Shown here: positions 2,437-28,199 of the stretch, piece after piece
Numbering within the stretch: position 1 is the first letter of the stretch
Layout: the number at the start of each line of letters is the position of its first letter
Notes under the pieces: model-generated
Database searches by the model: none
Told to the model about the DNA's origin: nothing
What the model saw: only the letters and a program-made list of their open reading frames with translations
Translations under genes and position numbers: made by a program
Virus record (IMG/VR): IMGVR_UViG_3300006738_000001
Coordinates: 1 to 38,939 of that record
Reading direction: 5' to 3' (one strand)
Source: a virus
DNA: 38,939 bases

Positions 2437-2606
2437 TCATGACCATGTTGCGCCGCCTCTGGCGCGGAAACAAAAGACCGGCCGCGGCGCGGGCCTGCTA
2501 CCTGAGATCCCTCGCCGCGATCGAAGTATGTGGAAACAAATACGATGGGCAATGGGCCCTGAGATTTTCAGAACAGGAGAAGAAATATGGTCGGAAAACT
2601 GACTGA
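2433..2606 (+). CDS. Hypothetical basic protein, 57 aa
   Basis: It is coupled to the previous gene by an ATGA overlap and runs 20 bases into the YqaJ gene. The N-terminus (MIMTMLRRLWRGNKRPAAAR) is strongly basic and amphipathic. The rest includes GNKYDGQWALRFSEQE, resembling small phage proteins of unknown role found beside recombination genes. Confidence 0.6.
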   Translation: MIMTMLRRLWRGNKRPAAARACYLRSLAAIEVCGNKYDGQWALRFSEQEKKYGRKTD

Positions 2607-3543
2607 CGATCGAGTTGCGTCTGCCAGCCGCGTCCCCGGGATCCTCGGAAAGTCTCCTTGGTCAACGCCCAACGAGGAGCTCCAATTTTCCCTGGATGCC
2701 ATCGATGACAAGCCGCACGGTTGGAGCGGAAGCGAAGCCGCAGATTGGGGTAATAGGCTCGAAACGGCAATCCTTATCGAAGGATCCAAGCGCCTCGGGC
2801 TCGGCAACGTCGAGACTGAATTCGAGCGAGCCGTGATCCATGACAAGATCCCCCTGCAAGCGAGCCTCGACGGGCTCGGGGAAGGGGACGGCCGCGTGAT
2901 CACAGCGGCGAAGACCAGCATCGACGGGATCTACGTTGTCGGTGCGGATGAGATCAAGCTTGAGGGGATCGGCGTTCTCGAAGCCAAGCTTACCCGAGAC
3001 CGGCCAGAAAGCGAGCCCGCGTTGTATCGCGGCCCGATCCAGTTGCAAGCGCAAATGATGTGCTTGCCGCGAGCAGTACGGTGGGGCGCGATCATGGTGC
3101 TCTACGGCGGCGTTGAACTAAGGATCTTTTTGTATCCGCCTCACCCGGGGACGATGACGGCGATCAAGGATGCCGTGCTCGACTTCGATCGGCGGATCCG
3201 GGAGAAGGATTACTATCCCTTGGCCTCATCCGCGGACGGCAATGTCGTTTATCCTTACGCTGAGAAGGCGCCCGCGATCGAGCTCCCGGATGAAATGATA
3301 GGGGTGCTTCAAGAGCGAGCCGCCGCGTGGAATGATATGTTAGCAAGCGAAGCGGCGGTCGAGCGGGCCGACATCAAGCTCAAGGAATGCCTCGGAAACC
3401 ATGAGCGCGGAACGTCCCCCGGGTTCGAGGTTGCTTGGCCCATGCGGAACTATAAAGCGCGGCCCGAGAAGACAACCCCGGCGAAAGAAGCCTATTCGAT
3501 CAGGCAAACGAAACTCAGGGTCAAGGAGATCCTAGAATTTTAG
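2587..3543 (+). CDS. YqaJ-family phage exonuclease
   Basis: This 318-residue protein matches the YqaJ viral recombinase / lambda exonuclease fold, a PD-(D/E)XK nuclease that resects double-stranded DNA ends. Visible landmarks are an early acidic helix (GSEAADWGNRLETAI), the catalytic strand GVLEAKLTRD near residue 137, and the QLQAQMM helix. The partner RecT gene starts 28 bases downstream, the standard exonuclease-annealase pair for recombination-dependent replication and repair. AGGAG upstream supports the ATG at 2587. Length is normal for the family. Confidence 0.9.
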   Translation: MVGKLTDDRVASASRVPGILGKSPWSTPNEELQFSLDAIDDKPHGWSGSEAADWGNRLETAILIEGSKRLGLGNVETEFERAVIHDKIPLQASLDGLGEGDGRVITAAKTSIDGIYVVGADEIKLEGIGVLEAKLTRDRPESEPALYRGPIQLQAQMMCLPRAVRWGAIMVLYGGVELRIFLYPPHPGTMTAIKDAVLDFDRRIREKDYYPLASSADGNVVYPYAEKAPAIELPDEMIGVLQERAAAWNDMLASEAAVERADIKLKECLGNHERGTSPGFEVAWPMRNYKARPEKTTPAKEAYSIRQTKLRVKEILEF

Positions 3544-3571
3544 CGATCAACGAAATAGAGGAAATGAAATC

Positions 3572-4588
3572 ATGACAAAAGATGTTTCCGTTTACGCCGC
3601 GCCGACAACCGCGGCCCTTGTGCCCGCCAACATGACCGAGGCGCTCGCATTGGCCGAGGTCATGTCGAAAGGAAAAATGGTCCCGGTGCATTTGCAGAAA
3701 GACCCCGCAACGTGCTTGATGGTCATCGAGCAATCGATGCGTTGGGGCATGAGCCCGTTCGCCGTCGCGCAATCAACAAGCTCGATCCACGGCAAGCTCA
3801 TGTTCGAGGGCAAGCTGATTGCCGGGGTTGTCAACGCCAACGGCAAATTGAAAAAGCGCCTCGACTATCGATACGAGGGCGAGAGCACCGCCCGCAAGGT
3901 TATCGTTTCGGGAACGCTCCAAGGCGAAGACGATCCCCGGATCATCGAAGTCGAATACGCCAAGGCGAAGACGTCGAACGATACTTGGATCAAACAGCCC
4001 GATCAAATGCTCGCCTATCATGGCGTCCGCGTGTGGGCCCGCCGCCATACCCCGGAATTGATGCTCGGCATCTACGCGCCCGAGGAGTTTGGCGCTGAGA
4101 AAGTCGCCCATCCCGACAAGCTGGCCGATATCACCCCAGAAGACAGTGGATTGGATGTTTTTGGGCTGTCAAACAAGATGGGCCTTAGCCAGGATCCCCA
4201 AAATGGGCCCTCTGTGGGCGAGCCTGAGGCCCCGGCCCCTACCCCACCCGAGGGGGCCGAGGCTGGCACTCCTTTGGCATCTGGTGTAGGCGATTTTTTG
4301 ATGATCCTGCCCGCCAGCAATAACATCGATGAAGCTCAGTTTTCCTACGCCTCACCGCAAGCATGGGCAGACGTCTTCGCGCAGATCATGGATCAGATCC
4401 GCTCGAACAAGGATCTCGAATATGTTGGGCGGCGCCATGACCTCGCCGAATTCAAAAAGGCAAACGATGAGATCCTCGACCGGCTCAAGAATGAGCTCCC
4501 GAGCGGCCATAAATTCTTGGCCGATACATATCGGAAGGCGATCAAGTCTCTTTCCGCAAAAGCCAAGCAAGAAAAGGATGCGCCATGA
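3572..4588 (+). CDS. recT: RecT-family single-strand annealing protein
   Basis: The 338-residue product has the RecT core: an N-terminal LALAEVMSKGKMVPVHL segment, SMRWGMSPFAVAQS, GKLMFEGKLIAG, and the strongly conserved block MLAYHGVRVWARRHTPELMLGIY. It would coat the 3' overhangs made by the neighbouring YqaJ exonuclease and anneal homologous strands. A Pro/Glu-rich linker around residues 208-235 separates the core from a helical C-terminal region. GAGGAAATG lies upstream of the ATG, and the stop overlaps the next ATG. Confidence 0.93.
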   Translation: MTKDVSVYAAPTTAALVPANMTEALALAEVMSKGKMVPVHLQKDPATCLMVIEQSMRWGMSPFAVAQSTSSIHGKLMFEGKLIAGVVNANGKLKKRLDYRYEGESTARKVIVSGTLQGEDDPRIIEVEYAKAKTSNDTWIKQPDQMLAYHGVRVWARRHTPELMLGIYAPEEFGAEKVAHPDKLADITPEDSGLDVFGLSNKMGLSQDPQNGPSVGEPEAPAPTPPEGAEAGTPLASGVGDFLMILPASNNIDEAQFSYASPQAWADVFAQIMDQIRSNKDLEYVGRRHDLAEFKKANDEILDRLKNELPSGHKFLADTYRKAIKSLSAKAKQEKDAP

Positions 4589-4908
4589 GATCCGCAATCA
4601 CTCCCCGGCAAAACGAAATGTTCACATTCCTCAAAAGCTATATCGCGGCTCATGGGATCTCCCCAACCTTCGCCGAATGCCAAGAGGCGCTCGGCATGAA
4701 GTCGAAAAACCAAGTCACAAAAACCTTGGTCGGGCTCGAACAACGGCAATACATCCGCCGCTTCAAATTCCTCAACCGCGGGATCGAGATCGTCAGTGAG
4801 GGGGATGCCGAAACAAAACGGCTTCGCGAGATCGAGGTTGCCGCCCGGGTTTATACGCGAACCCTCAACGCAAACGACTTCGCAATCCTCAAGGAGCTCG
4901 TTGCGTGA
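4585..4908 (+). CDS. LexA-type winged-helix DNA-binding protein without peptidase domain
   Basis: Residues 4-60 follow the LexA DNA-binding domain: ITPRQNEMFTFLKSYIAAHG, SPTFAECQEALGMKS, then QVTKTLVGLEQRQYIRR. LexA has the same helix order before its self-cleaving domain. Here the protein stops at 107 residues with a short helical tail and lacks the Ser-Lys peptidase part. It could be a non-cleavable regulator of phage genes or a competitor for SOS operators. It overlaps both recT and the following membrane peptide by four bases. Confidence 0.8.
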   Translation: MRSAITPRQNEMFTFLKSYIAAHGISPTFAECQEALGMKSKNQVTKTLVGLEQRQYIRRFKFLNRGIEIVSEGDAETKRLREIEVAARVYTRTLNANDFAILKELVA

Positions 4909-7349: not shown

Positions 7350-8090
7350 CTACGCAGCTACACATCCATCCATCATCATGGGGGCGCTGACAGTGAAGTC
7401 ATCAAATTTATAATGTGAGATTGACCCTGCATCGAAGGTTGGGGCGTAGGTGTCCCAAGCAAATCGGATGCCTGAGATTTGTCCTTTGACTTGGCTATTG
7501 CCAATGCCTTTCCAGTGAATGCTGTCCTCCTCTACTGGGTTCCAAAGACACCAAGTGATAAATGAAACCAGCCCTGATCCTCGCTGGTGAATATCGACGA
7601 TCCCGTCCATTGTTTCGCCCGAGGGTATCTCAATCCTGCCACTGCCCTGTGGCTTACATTCACTGTCGGACCCGCTGCTGTAGGCGTCAACAGTGTCACA
7701 AGTGTCTTCAACTCCGCGCCAGTTATAGTTGGTCGTGGCGTATGACGCCGACACCGCGATGCGAATGAACATGTCTTTGGAATTGGATGGGCTAACTCCC
7801 GTCAAGATAAGCCGGTGCCACGCATAGCTAGTGTCAGCCATATCCGCGTGATCCATGTCGATATTACTGCCACTCGTGGTCGCAACGGTTTCGACAAGGG
7901 TTCCTCCGGCAGCAGCAGCCGCCTGGAACGTCGGAGCCGCGCCTGCCCCATTCGAGGTAAGAACATGAGTTGCCGTTCCAACCGCGACCGACGCCGGATT
8001 GCCACTAGCATCCCATGTGATTAACTCGCCGTCAGTGCCATCAGCAAGGTTCGCCGGGGTAATGCCGGATCCGGCCAGTACTAAAGTCAT
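7350..8090 (-). CDS. Tail-associated beta-rich protein, probable receptor-binding, 246 aa
   Basis: Residues 1-65 (ADGTDGELITWDASGNPA, then THVLTSNGAGAAPTFQAA) form the repeat-like adaptor typical of phage tail fibres, where each short motif packs as a trimer. The rest is beta-rich and aromatic, ending SHYKFDDFTVSAPMMM, consistent with a host-binding head domain. It starts at an ATGA overlap with the preceding helper gene. The receptor is unknown. Confidence 0.7.
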   Translation of the reverse strand: MTLVLAGSGITPANLADGTDGELITWDASGNPASVAVGTATHVLTSNGAGAAPTFQAAAAAGGTLVETVATTSGSNIDMDHADMADTSYAWHRLILTGVSPSNSKDMFIRIAVSASYATTNYNWRGVEDTCDTVDAYSSGSDSECKPQGSGRIEIPSGETMDGIVDIHQRGSGLVSFITWCLWNPVEEDSIHWKGIGNSQVKGQISGIRFAWDTYAPTFDAGSISHYKFDDFTVSAPMMMDGCVAA

Positions 8091-8449
8091 GGCTTCTCTC
8101 CTCGTAATGTGACCTTGGCCGCGTAGGCGTCCTGTGTGTATTGCGGCAGTTTATTGAATTGTGTCGGTGTCATCGTGCCGATAACGTCTTCTGATTGTCG
8201 GGTCATAGTCGCGTCTGTTTCGGCCATTGCGGTTTGCCAGTCACGTTTAGCAACAGACGCTGCCAGGAACGTGTCGTAGTCGGCTTCCTTGGCAATGACA
8301 TCGGCGGCACTGATATTGGTGACGCCTTGTTCATCAAAGTAGCCCTGCAAGGAAGCCTCGTTGCCGTCCCACTGTCGCGACAATGACCGCCCCGGCACTC
8401 GCCAGAACTTGTCGAGGACACGTCGCATCTTTGGATGATTAAGAGCCAT
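8087..8449 (-). CDS. Small tail-helper protein, paralogue of the 9013-9294 product
   Basis: The 120-residue helical protein ends in MTPTQFNKLPQYTQDAYAAK plus VTLRGEKP. The product of 9013-9294 ends almost the same way (LTADQKAALPEYTRDQHAAK, then LVARSERP), and both carry MTR about 12 residues before this block. The two genes are therefore duplicates, each following a different tail protein. A chaperone or adaptor role is inferred. Confidence 0.7.
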   Translation of the reverse strand: MALNHPKMRRVLDKFWRVPGRSLSRQWDGNEASLQGYFDEQGVTNISAADVIAKEADYDTFLAASVAKRDWQTAMAETDATMTRQSEDVIGTMTPTQFNKLPQYTQDAYAAKVTLRGEKP

Positions 8450-9011
8450 CGATTATCTCCACTAAAAAACGTGCCGTCGTCGTTGTACCAGTTATTGTTG
8501 TTTCGCCTGTTCGGCTATTTACGTTATCACCCATCCAAACTTCAACATCTTTTGCTGATCCTGATGTAATACTTCGCCCAACAATATCCCAACTCAACGT
8601 CATAGGGGCCATAACTGCTTCCATATCCGCCGACCAACCATTTGTTGTTATAAGGCTACTAACTGAAGCATTACCTTGCCACCCAACATAGTTTGAAGTC
8701 CCATCATAAAGATCAACAACCGCCCAAAGAATTGCGTCTGCGCCTACTTTTAATCCTAAAGCAAAGTCAGAAACATTTCCTTCTGTTTCATCATGCTCCA
8801 TCTCAAGGACGGTCAGGCGAATGATCCCAGCCGCTGGGATGACCATCGAAACCGCTGACCCTATCTGGCTCCCCCCACCGGCTTGTGTGGCGAGAGCAGT
8901 GTCAGAGGTATGCGTGATGAAGTCATACTGAACACGCCCCATACGAGCGCCGACAACGGTTCGCCCACCTACCGAAATGTCGTCGTCAGCTACTGTTAGT
9001 CCTGTTGCCAT
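8439..9011 (-). CDS. Tail-associated beta-rich protein, 190 aa
   Basis: The protein is beta-sandwich-like: short strands, many Ser/Thr/Gly, RVQYDFITHTSDTALATQAG near the start and TTARFLVEIIDGS at the end. It has no cysteines and no enzymatic motif. It stands between two paralogous helper genes, suggesting one of several interchangeable tail decorations or receptor-binding proteins. Its AT-rich codon use differs from the terminase and recombination genes. Confidence 0.65.
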   Translation of the reverse strand: MATGLTVADDDISVGGRTVVGARMGRVQYDFITHTSDTALATQAGGGSQIGSAVSMVIPAAGIIRLTVLEMEHDETEGNVSDFALGLKVGADAILWAVVDLYDGTSNYVGWQGNASVSSLITTNGWSADMEAVMAPMTLSWDIVGRSITSGSAKDVEVWMGDNVNSRTGETTITGTTTTARFLVEIIDGS

Positions 9012-23879: not shown

Positions 23880-24147
23880 CTAGCTTGGATCACATTCGAT
23901 GTAACCGACTTTTGCCTCTTCCATACGGGTCGCCCCAATGGTCATGGAAACGAAGACCTGAGTGGAATGATTTTTATCAACCCTCTCAGCAATCTTCACA
24001 GTCGGCTCGGCACCAATTGCCAACACGATGCCGCTCTGCGAATAGAACAGCACCTTGTGATCAGAGTTACTGTCGGTCTCGATCCGTTGGGTTCGCAAGA
24101 ATTTGAACCCAAGGAACGTGTCGACCTCACCCTGCACTAAAGCTTTG
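23880..24147 (-). CDS. Major capsid protein, exon 2 (C-terminal part)
   Basis: The exon starts by completing a split Val codon (GT in exon 1, C here) and continues KALVQGEVDTFLGFKF to the end VGYIECDPS. It matches the C-terminal third of podovirus HK97-fold capsid proteins, in which this block follows the ADYN-type segment directly. On its own it has no ribosome binding site and only an internal GTG, so it makes sense only as spliced sequence. Joined with exon 1 the protein is 293 residues. Confidence 0.88.
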
Positions 24148-24395
24148 CCTTATGTTCGCCAAGATGCGCGACTATCTTGACCGTCTTTCGACTGCTTACT
24201 GTCGCCAGCAAGAGCAGACCATATCATCACCCCATAGGGGCGTCCTGCGCTTCGGATCGCTTGATCCTACTCCCGACAAAGGGATGGTCGTTGAACCTTC
24301 CTCGTTAGAGGCTTGGCTGCTGATTGTCTCAATGAGAGTTTCCAGCAATTCACAGGATTTTCATCACCACATTACTGTGATGCGTGGCCTAGTTG
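24148..24395 (-). ncRNA. Group I self-splicing intron in the capsid gene, 248 nt, no ORF
   Basis: On the minus strand all core elements appear in order. P is AATTGCTGGAAA (intron nt 46-57), Q is AATCAGCAGCCAAGCC (71-86), R is GTTCAACGACCA (100-111) and S is GATGATATGGTC (168-179). Stems: P1 exon TGGT with GGCCA (7-11), keeping the U-G pair at the splice site; P2 14-19/29-34; P3 TCCTGTG 39-45 with CGCAGGA 147-153; P4 48-53/74-79; P5 59-62/66-69; P7 GACCA 107-111 with TGGTC 175-179; P7.1 and P7.2 hairpins; P8 CCCC/GGGG; P9 184-190/195-201 with a GCGA loop; P9.1 with a GAAA loop; P9.2 217-222/231-236. It ends in G. P7.1/P7.2 suggest subgroup IA. An in-frame TAG lies at 24389-24391. Confidence 0.93.
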
Positions 24396-25009
24396 ACCAT
24401 GTTGTAGTCAGAGCTTGTGACCTCCGTCTCTGCGAGGAGATTGCGAAGCTGTTTCGCATTCACCACACAAAAGCGGCTGTCATCAGGATCGACTTCGCCA
24501 GCATCGAGAACCTCTTTCGCAGCGCGAAGCTTCTCGACGTTCAATCCGACGTCAGTCGCTGACCCGCCGACTTGAACGTCGACAGTGTTCGAGCTATCGT
24601 AGCTCGTTGAGGTTCCGCCAGCAACGCCCGTATAGGCGGTGCCGTCAGCGGCGTCGATGATTGCATCATCCATCGCTCGACCCATCGCAAAGGAAGCAGC
24701 CTCGGCATAGGGACCAGTGGGCAAGATGAGCATTCGGACGCGATCTTCACCATCGATGAGATCGGCCCAGTCGTAGTCGGCAAGGGATACCCGACGCCGA
24801 GAATGGGGACTGTCCATTCTAGGGGTGTCGGAATGGCGCGACGTTCTCTTGCGAGCGGCCGTTGAGCCGATCTGCTCGAAAAACGCATTCTTCCCAACAA
24901 CGGTTTCGACGCGAACGGAACCCCGTAGCCTCGAACCCTTTTGCTGCACAAGATGCGCCACATTGCCCCGGTATTGTTCCACAAACGCTGTGGTAATTTG
25001 GACAGACAT
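24396..25009 (-). CDS. Major capsid protein, exon 1 (N-terminal part)
   Basis: The ATG at 25009 is preceded by CGGAGG. The product begins MSVQITTAFVEQYRGNVAHL and includes VGKNAFFEQIGSTAARKRTS, VSLADYDWADLIDGED and FAMGRAMDDAIIDAADG, the pattern of HK97-fold capsid proteins of BPP-1/T7-like podoviruses. The exon ends within EVTSSDYNM plus GT of a Val codon. Reading on without splicing gives only Val-Asn and a stop, removing a conserved third of the capsid protein. The gene follows the scaffold in normal order. Confidence 0.92.
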
Positions 25010-25114: not shown

Positions 25115-25303
25115 TCAATCGGGGGCCTTAGAGGCCGTGCCCGATCCTTTCTTTTGTCGGCCTTTCGAGGGGGCTTTCACCGTATCCTCGGAAACCCAAC
25201 GGTGGAAAATTTTGGCGATCCTCACAAGATCGTCAGGTGATTGCTTCCCGCTTCTAAGCGCGATTGCGAGACGCAAACATTCAAGTTTATGTAGCTCCGA
25301 CAT
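25115..25303 (-). CDS. Hypothetical protein between scaffold and capsid, 62 aa
   Basis: It overlaps the end of the scaffold gene by 17 bases. The product is basic and helical (MSELHKLECLRLAIALRSGK...) with a Lys-rich tail (SKGRQKKGSGTASKAPD). Position suggests a capsid-assembly accessory protein. The 105-base gap to the capsid start (25010-25114) holds the capsid ribosome binding site; I see no convincing complete promoter in it. Confidence 0.6.
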   Translation of the reverse strand: MSELHKLECLRLAIALRSGKQSPDDLVRIAKIFHRWVSEDTVKAPSKGRQKKGSGTASKAPD

Positions 25304-26090
25304 TCTCGGGATGCGCGATACTGTGGAGCTCGGTCAAGCGGTCATTGAGCATTTTATACTCCGCATGATGCTTGTCATAAAGAGCAGGATTGGCGCGGAG
25401 CCGGGAGATCTCCTCTTTCGCCGTCGCGGGCGTCTGAGCGAAATTCCTGTTGCCAGCGCCATCCTTGAAACCGGGGGTCGAGATCTCCATCCCCGCCTTT
25501 ACAAGCCCATTCATAACGACCGGGTTGGCCGATAGCCCATGTTGATAGAGTAGATCAAAAAACTCCTCTCCGAAAAACGTGCGCCCCGCCTTATCGGCAA
25601 GCGCAATGCGCTCATCGAAGGCGGCGCCATATTCCTTCTTCAGGTCTTCTTGGCGCTTATGCATGGCCTCATCATCGCCATTAGCCTTGGCCGTGTATTG
25701 CTCGCCCATGCGCTCGACAAACTTGTCGTGCATCGCCTGAGCCATCGAGGCTGGCATCTTGATCTCATGAGCCGCGGCGCGGAACCAATCGCTGAGCCCA
25801 TCGTCGTAACCCTCGAACCCCTCGGGCGCCGCGAGCTCATAGGCGCTCGCTTCCTCGGGCCAGCCAAGCTCGCTCCAGCCTTCCCAATTCGCAAGCTCTT
25901 CGCCCGCCTTTGGAACAGACAGGCGCTGATCCCCGATTTTGCTTTCGAGGTGCATATGAGCTTGTACAACATCCGCGGGAGATCCGTATCCCTTGTTCGC
26001 GATATGCTGTTTCGCCGCGTCATCGAACCCCTCGATCCAACTCTGATCAGACGGGGTGCCCGCGGTCGCGGACCCATCATTGTCAGCCAT
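25287..26090 (-). CDS. Head scaffolding protein
   Basis: The 267-residue acidic helical protein shows the usual podovirus scaffold plan: WIEGFDDAAKQHIANKGY, then DVVQAHMHLESKIGDQRLSV, the blocks RTFFGEEFFDLLYQHGLSAN and NPVVMNGLVKAGMEI, and a charged C-terminal helical hairpin (LYDKHHAEYKMLNDRLTEL). It would guide procapsid assembly with portal and capsid and then exit. It overlaps the Bbp19-like gene by 8 bases. Confidence 0.88.
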   Translation of the reverse strand: MADNDGSATAGTPSDQSWIEGFDDAAKQHIANKGYGSPADVVQAHMHLESKIGDQRLSVPKAGEELANWEGWSELGWPEEASAYELAAPEGFEGYDDGLSDWFRAAAHEIKMPASMAQAMHDKFVERMGEQYTAKANGDDEAMHKRQEDLKKEYGAAFDERIALADKAGRTFFGEEFFDLLYQHGLSANPVVMNGLVKAGMEISTPGFKDGAGNRNFAQTPATAKEEISRLRANPALYDKHHAEYKMLNDRLTELHSIAHPENVGAT

Positions 26091-26343: not shown

Positions 26344-27984
26344 TTAGCCCTCTCCCGGGGTTGCGATCAACTCATTGATCTTCGCGACGTTGAGTGCAGC
26401 CTTCGAGGCGGGCTCGGCGGCGCCGATCATTTGTTGAGCCGAATTCATTTGCTGACGAGCCTCACGCATTTGCTGTACCTCTTCAATGCGGCGAAGGATC
26501 CGTTTCGGAGCCCCGTTGGTATCGGAGAGGATCCGCGTAATCTCATCCGTATCGAAATTGTCCATGACGCCGGGATCGACGGCGGCGATCGGTTGGACCA
26601 TTTCGAGCGTCCGCAAAATTCCGACACCTTCCTCGGCCTTCAAGGCCCGCGAGAGCGGCGATACATACTCGATCTCGAACTCGCCTTCCGCCTCTTCAAG
26701 CAACGGCGGCGGCGGCGGTAGGATCCCCTGACGGGCGAGGATGGCGATCTCGCGCTCGACCAAGGGGCCGAGTGTCTCGGATTGCTGACGCCCGACAGTT
26801 GGCGCCAAAAGGGCCCCCTTTTCCTGGGCGCGTTGGAGAACTTCCGTCGCCGTCATCTGGGGCGTTTCGACCAAAATCTGGAACAAGGTAACGAGAAACG
26901 CATCGTTGATTACCCGACGCCGCTGATCCATCATCTCAAGGCCGATATCCACGCGGCCGCCGGTCAGGAGCGGTTGGATCGGGGCTTGGCCTCGGCCGTC
27001 GAGGCGGGCGAAGGTGGCGCCGCCGGGAGTAAGATCGACCGGCAAGATCACGCCGTCGTCCGCAATTATAAGGGGCGGATCGACAACCTTCTGGCCCGCC
27101 TTGATGACCGTCTTGCTCATCTCGTTGATCATCTTTATCTCAGGCAAAACCAGCATGGCCGGGGATCGACCATAGACCTCTCGCGGCCCCGTAACGTACC
27201 GGCTCATAATGTAGGGGAGCTCCTCTTCCCCGCCTTCTTCGAGAAGGTGTTTCTCCTTGACCTCGTAGTAATTGGAGAGCCAGGGGCGCTGATCGGTGCG
27301 CCGGGAAGTTGGATCCCGATCAGATCGCGGCATAACAACGTGAAGAATATCAACCCGGGTATCGGGCTTGTCCTCAACGATCTTTTTCAGATCCGCCGAG
27401 AGATTGGCATCCGGGAACATCCGCATCACTTGACGGGCCGCGACATTGAACTCGCGAAACACGGTATCGATCTTGCCGTGCTCGTCCTCGGCAATGAAGA
27501 TATCGCCGAGGTGGACGGCTCGATAGTGCATCCCGGCGATCTTGTCCTCGCCGACAAAAAGGGTTCCCGTTCCGAATGCGCCGAGCGAGATATAACCTTC
27601 ATGCATCTGGCTGGCGAAATTAGCCTTGGGCGAATACCGTTGTTGGAAAAGCATATCCTCGACGGTATCGAACCATAGGCGGACGTCGTAATCGGCATCG
27701 AGGGTTTTATCGGTGGCGCGAAGCGTATGCCAGCGAGCGCCTCTGGGCGTCAACAAACTCTCGACGGCCGAGGCAAACCGTTCCAAGGCGAGGGCCGCGG
27801 TGGCGTCATAGAGCTTCTCGGTCCTCTTGTCGCCGCCCGTGCGGTGCCCAACAAAGAGCGAGCTCCGGGGGAGACACCGCTCGGAGATCTCTTCCCAGTG
27901 GCTTTCCCATACTCCCCGCTCGCGCTTCATCCCCTCATAGCGCTTGAAGATCTCATCGATATTGTCAACGCCGGTTTCTGCCAT
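26344..27984 (-). CDS. Portal protein (T7-type head-to-tail connector)
   Basis: The ATG at 27984 has GGAG seven bases upstream; a TTG two codons earlier is also in frame. The 546-residue product has the T7-like portal signatures: ERGVWESHWEEISERCLPRS, KLYDATAALALERFASAVES, LLTPRGARWHTL and LGAFGTGTLFVGEDK, with INEMSKTVIKAGQKVVDPPL in the middle and a helical C-terminal barrel. Twelve copies form the DNA channel and nucleate the procapsid. Length is typical. Confidence 0.93.
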   Translation of the reverse strand: MAETGVDNIDEIFKRYEGMKRERGVWESHWEEISERCLPRSSLFVGHRTGGDKRTEKLYDATAALALERFASAVESLLTPRGARWHTLRATDKTLDADYDVRLWFDTVEDMLFQQRYSPKANFASQMHEGYISLGAFGTGTLFVGEDKIAGMHYRAVHLGDIFIAEDEHGKIDTVFREFNVAARQVMRMFPDANLSADLKKIVEDKPDTRVDILHVVMPRSDRDPTSRRTDQRPWLSNYYEVKEKHLLEEGGEEELPYIMSRYVTGPREVYGRSPAMLVLPEIKMINEMSKTVIKAGQKVVDPPLIIADDGVILPVDLTPGGATFARLDGRGQAPIQPLLTGGRVDIGLEMMDQRRRVINDAFLVTLFQILVETPQMTATEVLQRAQEKGALLAPTVGRQQSETLGPLVEREIAILARQGILPPPPPLLEEAEGEFEIEYVSPLSRALKAEEGVGILRTLEMVQPIAAVDPGVMDNFDTDEITRILSDTNGAPKRILRRIEEVQQMREARQQMNSAQQMIGAAEPASKAALNVAKINELIATPGEG

Positions 27985-27986
27985 GC

Positions 27987-28199
27987 TCAAACTCCAATCG
28001 ACGTCGTCTTGCGAAGCGCGTCAACGCCCGAGTTGCGGGGCGCTCCACTCAGAACAGTATTGGCAACGCCGCGTTTCACCGTGCCCCCCCGCCCAGTGGC
28101 AGAGGTTGCGCGTTGCGCTCTATCCAATCGAGCACCAGCGGATCCAATCGCAGGGCGGCGGCCGCGGCTCTGGTTGCCCGCCGGGGCTTGACCACACAT
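27987..28199 (-). CDS. Hypothetical Arg-rich protein, 70 aa
   Basis: Its ATG shares the last base of the upstream TAA (TAATG), and it ends just before the portal ATG. The sequence is strongly basic (GNQSRGRRPAIGSAGARLDR) with no predicted membrane segment. Short basic proteins are often found just ahead of podovirus portals. DNA contact in the head is possible but not shown. Confidence 0.6.
   Translation of the reverse strand: MCGQAPAGNQSRGRRPAIGSAGARLDRAQRATSATGRGGTVKRGVANTVLSGAPRNSGVDALRKTTSIGV

Follow-up and report, generated by a model that had tools for sequence, protein, structure and literature searches.

Introns in phage capsid genes have been reported for mycobacteriophage LittleE and lactococcal phage Tuc2009 (PMC3706429). 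Splicing of the LittleE capsid intron was shown by RT-PCR and protein sequencing, and its assignment to group I was considered likely by its authors (PMC3706429). Group I introns are also found in the capsid gene of crAss-like phages of the Delta and Zeta groups, sometimes several per gene (PMC7886860). Small ORF-less group I introns occur in the Jug phages, many of them in essential genes, and about half of those tested were backed by metatranscriptome reads (PMC12363816). For phages of the HTVC010P type, a full-text search of an incomplete literature returned no paper on introns.

The interrupted capsid gene

The stretch of DNA analyzed here, referred to as the window, is an environmental contig of 38,939 nt (IMG/VR record IMGVR_UViG_3300006738_000001). 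Its major capsid gene lies on the minus strand, is followed by tail and internal virion genes, and is divided into two exons.

26344-27990, minus strand: head-tail connector, upstream of the capsid gene
25287-26090, minus strand: gene with a weak protease match, between the connector and the capsid gene
24396-25009, minus strand: first exon (614 nt) of the major capsid gene, from the ATG at 25009 to ...AAC ATG GT (ORF and spliced translation)
24385-24399, minus strand: predicted P1, exon UGGU (24399-24396) with intron guide GCCA (24388-24385) (pairing scan)
24389-24391, minus strand: UAG in frame with exon 1, two codons beyond the splice site, where the unspliced reading frame stops (ORF end and translation)
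24148-24395, minus strand: group I intron, 248 nt, ORF-less, bearing P7.1/P7.2, IA-like (Rfam RF00028; precise gap relative to intronless relatives)
23880-24147, minus strand: second exon (268 nt with its stop codon) of the major capsid gene, beginning C AAA GCT TTA GTG (spliced translation)

The frame of exon 2 differs from that of exon 1 in the unspliced DNA. Joining position 24396 to 24147, with the junction sequence AACATGGT|CAAAGCTTTAG, gives an uninterrupted ORF of 614 + 268 nt that encodes 293 aa, residues 206-293 of which map to 24146-23883 (tblastn). The spliced protein matches PF19821 (Phage_capsid_2) over residues 5-291 of 293 (E 9.8e-92) and phrog_3437 (E 2.1e-78), and is 61% identical to the capsid of Pelagibacter phage Baldr, 61% to that of EXVC032P, and 56% to that of HTVC010P. 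By this full-length family match, the predicted product of the joined exons is an HTVC010P-type major capsid protein (PF19821/phrog_3437), and the joining in perfect frame agrees with the initial annotation. No second capsid copy is present in the window.

The insert was identified with the Rfam model RF00028 (Intron_gpI), which matches the minus strand at 24405-24195 with 88.9 bits (E 1.4e-21; gathering score, 50) over the full model, 1-253, and is the sole Rfam hit in the window. This bears out the group I intron that the initial annotation had placed in the capsid gene, with the correct boundaries and length. A chance match is excluded by the Rfam E value together with the covariation over ten introns described below. 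At the level of sequence, positions 24148-24395 of the minus strand are thus confirmed as a complete ORF-less group I intron splitting the major capsid gene.

Both splice sites are where they had been predicted, the 5′ site being marked by the U·G pair of P1, U24396·G24388, and the 3′ site by the last intron base, G24148. U24396 is the only one of four U residues tested within 12 nt that gives both a stem of at least 4 pairs and the right protein; at U24406, 5 pairs are possible, but the frame would stay broken. The junction falls inside NMVKALVQGE, where intronless relatives read N-T-V-K-A-L-V-Q-G-E and align without a gap. This is the outcome of the capsid alignment proposed as a check of the annotation: relatives run continuously across the junction, with no insertion at this point. 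The insertion point is surrounded by strongly conserved sequence, with K206 retained in 77 and L208 in all 79 of 79 relatives. In the capsid search, 76 of 80 relatives were uninterrupted, which is not a frequency because interrupted genes score lower and get pushed out.

Met204 (codon 24398-24400, minus strand) is shared by none of the 79 intronless relatives. In P1, the first pair draws its U from this ATG codon, and the ACG common at this position would produce a C·A mismatch. Pressure to pair with the guide may therefore have influenced codon 204 of the capsid gene.

That the capsid gene is simply frameshifted, decayed, or misassembled is ruled out by the ribozyme fold, the same insert in several contigs, and the empty sites in relatives. 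An intein is likewise ruled out, the insert having in-frame stops.

Elsewhere, at 2587-4588 (plus strand) and in other ORFs, the window encodes a RecT protein with a weak YqaJ-type neighbor, a protein with a LexA-type DNA-binding domain, a DUF1064/resolvase-like protein, and a GTA-type holin. The presence of a repressor-like protein may be a hint of a temperate lifestyle.

Fold and covariation of the intron

All helices from P2 to P9.2 can be formed in the window intron, including those named in the initial annotation (P3 with 7 pairs, P7 GACCA/TGGTC, P7.1/P7.2, and the GNRA-capped P9 hairpins).

24357-24351 with 24249-24243, minus strand: P3, 7/7 pairs, paired in all ten introns
24347-24343 with 24322-24318, minus strand: P4, 5/5 pairs, enclosing P5
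24337-24334 with 24330-24327, minus strand: P5, inside P4
24311-24308 with 24303-24300, minus strand: P6, CCUC/GAGG, 4-nt loop
24289-24285 with 24221-24217, minus strand: P7, GACCA/UGGUC, 5/5, guanosine-binding helix, enclosing P7.1 and P7.2
24284-24281 with 24274-24271, minus strand: P7.1, 4/4
24267-24263 with 24258-24254, minus strand: P7.2, 5/5
24240-24237 with 24233-24230, minus strand: P8, CCCC/GGGG, 4/4
24212-24206 with 24201-24195, minus strand: P9, 7/7, GCGA loop
24192-24190 with 24185-24183, minus strand: P9.1, 3/3, GAAA loop
24179-24174 with 24165-24160, minus strand: P9.2, 6/6

Covariation was explored using an alignment of the window intron and nine related introns that was not fitted to the structure. 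Across these ten introns, 89.4% of the helix cells are paired, and double-sided changes occur at 28 pairs. The covariation score is 0.400 versus 0.164 in shuffles, with none of 500 shuffles reaching 0.400, and it is at most 0.09 once the partners are slid by 1 to 3 nt. P4, P6, P7, P8, P9, and P9.1 are, like P3, paired in 10/10 introns. P7 shows a compensatory C-G to U-A change in one of them (L232), P8 shows double changes at 3 of its 4 pairs, and the region of P9, P9.1, and P9.2 (24160-24212) is also backed by covariation. P2 is unconserved on the ten-intron alignment and P7.2 is paired in 76% of cells, a shortfall that is probably due to an alignment shift there. The position of P7.1/P7.2 between P7 and P3′ is that of subgroup IA, and by these helices the intron appears IA-like.

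Related introns in capsid and other genes

An identical intron is found in contigs L083/L045, L108, and L113, and its last 203 nt are found in L109. Where they align with the window, these contigs are 97-100% identical to it; they belong to the same phage population and are not independent gains. Within the same capsid family, codon 47 is interrupted by a different group I intron (55.9 bits) in three contigs (L075, L076, and L077). Another site, 8 nt downstream of that in the window (site 2), holds an ORF-less intron, 249-262 nt long and inserted after GCGU in K-A-L-V, in at least 17 more contigs (L226, L182, L210, L167, L168, L188, L190, L216, L232, and others). The site 2 introns resemble the window intron in being ORF-less, in their fold, in their host gene (phrog_3437), and in being 60-70% identical to it; they differ in the insertion point and in the guide sequence, the guides differing because the sites do. 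Two insertions per capsid gene, at codon 47 and at the K-A-L-V codons, are seen in L226 (6068-7404, plus strand) and L153 (1224-2443, plus strand).

Two motif scans of IMG/VR, pooled with one further scan, gave at least 194 nonredundant related introns. At least 48 of these are within, or immediately adjacent to, major capsid genes of at least seven PHROG families, and at least 40 of those 48 have capsid-family exons on both sides. By PHROG counts of the flanking exons among the matches listed, the gene most often identified as interrupted is that of the major head protein. Also among the matches listed, 10 of the 14 introns nearest to that of the window are in capsid genes, from six families (334, 1328, 11589, 3437, 283, and 267). 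The enrichment in capsid genes among these nearest relatives is modest (odds ratio, 2.6-2.9; p, 0.01-0.03, versus the rest of the listed set and with L116 and L172 uncounted). The distribution points to coat genes as a favored home for such introns. The initial annotation had noted that phage group I introns are best known from DNA-metabolism and lysis genes; given these counts and the published cases (PMC3706429, PMC7886860), capsid genes are no exceptional location. A lineage confined to capsid genes is ruled out, as relatives also occur in DNA polymerase, ribonucleotide reductase, terminase, tape-measure, and single-strand-binding genes.

The nearest intron among the matches listed is that of L105 and its copies (L102, L093, and L111), in a capsid gene of PF13252 (phrog_334). 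Like the window intron, to which it is 80.8% identical over 125 and 89% over 46 aligned positions, it interrupts a major capsid gene. It differs in its capsid family and site, and in holding an HNH-like ORF of 171 aa in P6, where the window intron has its 4-nt loop. This ORF (4119-4634, minus strand) has no Pfam family match; its CxxC and LDH motifs are like those of HNH/Endo VII enzymes, and from these motifs it is read as a putative HNH-like nuclease.

Other arrangements were also observed. A related ORF-bearing intron interrupts the phrog_11589 major head gene of L116 (about 7560-8850, plus strand), and this type recurs in L128, L104, L094, and L085. In L123 (about 7350-8510, plus strand), and also in L088 and L129, a phrog_1328-type capsid gene is cut by three apparent short introns, the exon pieces between them being only a few tens of residues long.

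Probable splicing and possible routes of arrival of the intron

Taken together, it is very probable that this is an ordinary group I intron spliced from the late capsid message to give the 293-aa capsid, and likely an ORF-losing descendant or an arrival aided in trans. This reading is preferred because of the Rfam score, the in-frame ORF, the continuous intronless relatives, P1 with the terminal G, and the covariation. Moreover, the identical intron in further contigs, the single capsid copy, and the closest relative, which interrupts another capsid gene and has an ORF in its P6, all argue for it. The P1 of only 4 pairs counts against it.

For splicing in vivo and the use of guanosine, we infer the following course. 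The late transcript would be translated through exon 1 up to the UAG just inside the intron. Such an early in-frame stop has been proposed to hold ribosomes off folding intron RNA (PMC3984707), and here it may keep them away in the same manner. The intron RNA would fold, the exon end UGGU would dock on the guide GCCA, and a guanosine bound at P7 would attack after U24396. The freed exon end would then attack after G24148, so that the exons are joined in frame.

As to its arrival, we infer that the window intron most likely descended from an endonuclease-bearing intron with loss of the ORF, as the P6 of its closest relative suggests, or moved with help in trans; the loss of the P6 ORF draws on comparison with one relative and is not a reconstructed history. 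That no homing endonuclease is visible in the intron or the window, as noted in the initial annotation, agrees with the profile searches. The 248 nt of the intron contain no such gene and have multiple in-frame stops. In the window, none was found by Pfam among 40 further ORFs, by genome scans with HNH_3, HNH, GIY-YIG, and the L105 ORF, or by PHROGs among 25 of 34 window families listed. The HNH_3, HNH, and GIY-YIG Pfam models and the L105 ORF query likewise gave no match in the site 2 records, which are mostly short fragments. The Pfam HNH model also misses the L105 ORF, and divergent enzymes escape such models.

Evidence on movement comes from two site 2 introns, in L156 (2541-3641, minus strand) and L182 (5645-6772, minus strand), which do not differ at any of their 249 nt, although the capsid proteins of the two contigs share only 54% identity. 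Identity in the exons is limited to about 22 nt upstream and 10 nt downstream of the intron, and a chimeric contig is unlikely because both L156 exons are divergent. This points to a recent horizontal transfer of an intron that has no endonuclease gene.

Collaborative homing, in which a separate endonuclease (the phage's own or that of the host or a co-infecting phage) cut the intronless site and an otherwise normal group I intron was copied in, is a credible route, if somewhat short of probable. It has been described for ORF-less introns (PMC3984707), and it fits both the recent movement of ORF-less relatives 8 nt away and the HNH-like ORF of the nearest relative. It is weakened by the searches above, in which no endonuclease was detected in the window or in the largely fragmentary site 2 records. 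It is unlikely that the intron arrived by reverse splicing into the abundant capsid message, with reverse transcription and recombination as the later steps. Related introns do occur at different sites of non-orthologous capsid genes, and the identical flank shared by L156 and L182 barely exceeds the guide target. This pathway, however, is without direct experimental evidence (PMC3984707) and requires a reverse transcriptase, none of which was seen among the scanned window proteins. A broader proposal, which we hold as tentative and rather doubtful, is that the lineage is specialized in major capsid genes and that its ORF-less members cross between phages and non-orthologous capsid families by means of enzymes acting in trans or by such reverse splicing.

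That the intron is degenerate and unspliced, leaving a truncated 206-aa capsid protein or a defective phage, would fit the early in-frame UAG, which truncates the unspliced product, and sequence cannot prove splicing; this is, however, very improbable, given that the core helices are all intact and covarying, that the two exons still encode capsid-family sequence and are 99.5-100% identical between contigs, and that the window holds no other capsid gene.

If the preferred reading, splicing from the late message, is true, every virion of this phage depends on a ribozyme in a very abundant late message, in the capsid family of the widespread HTVC010P-type marine phages. The earlier statement that the intron ties virion production to splicing stands in this sense, as it follows from the position; a regulatory function has no evidence behind it. 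Annotation pipelines take such genes as broken, so that surveys using the capsid as a marker miss or split them. With at least seven capsid families invaded, two sites 8 nt apart in one of them, and an identical ORF-less intron in two distant phages, the spread of introns lacking an endonuclease becomes testable.

Compared with the systems already described, the window is like LittleE and Tuc2009 in having an intron in a phage major capsid gene. It differs from them in the capsid family, and its intron is unlike that of LittleE, which measures about 819 bp and contains a nuclease ORF. The introns of crAss-like phages share with it both the group I class and the major capsid gene; those introns, however, were detected through endonuclease domains and belong to large gut phages. 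The Jug introns come from huge gut phages, and the reported examples are in terL, nrdD, and polymerase genes. Capsid introns as such are therefore already known, and what is worth pursuing is that capsid genes are invaded recurrently and that ORF-less introns are transferred.
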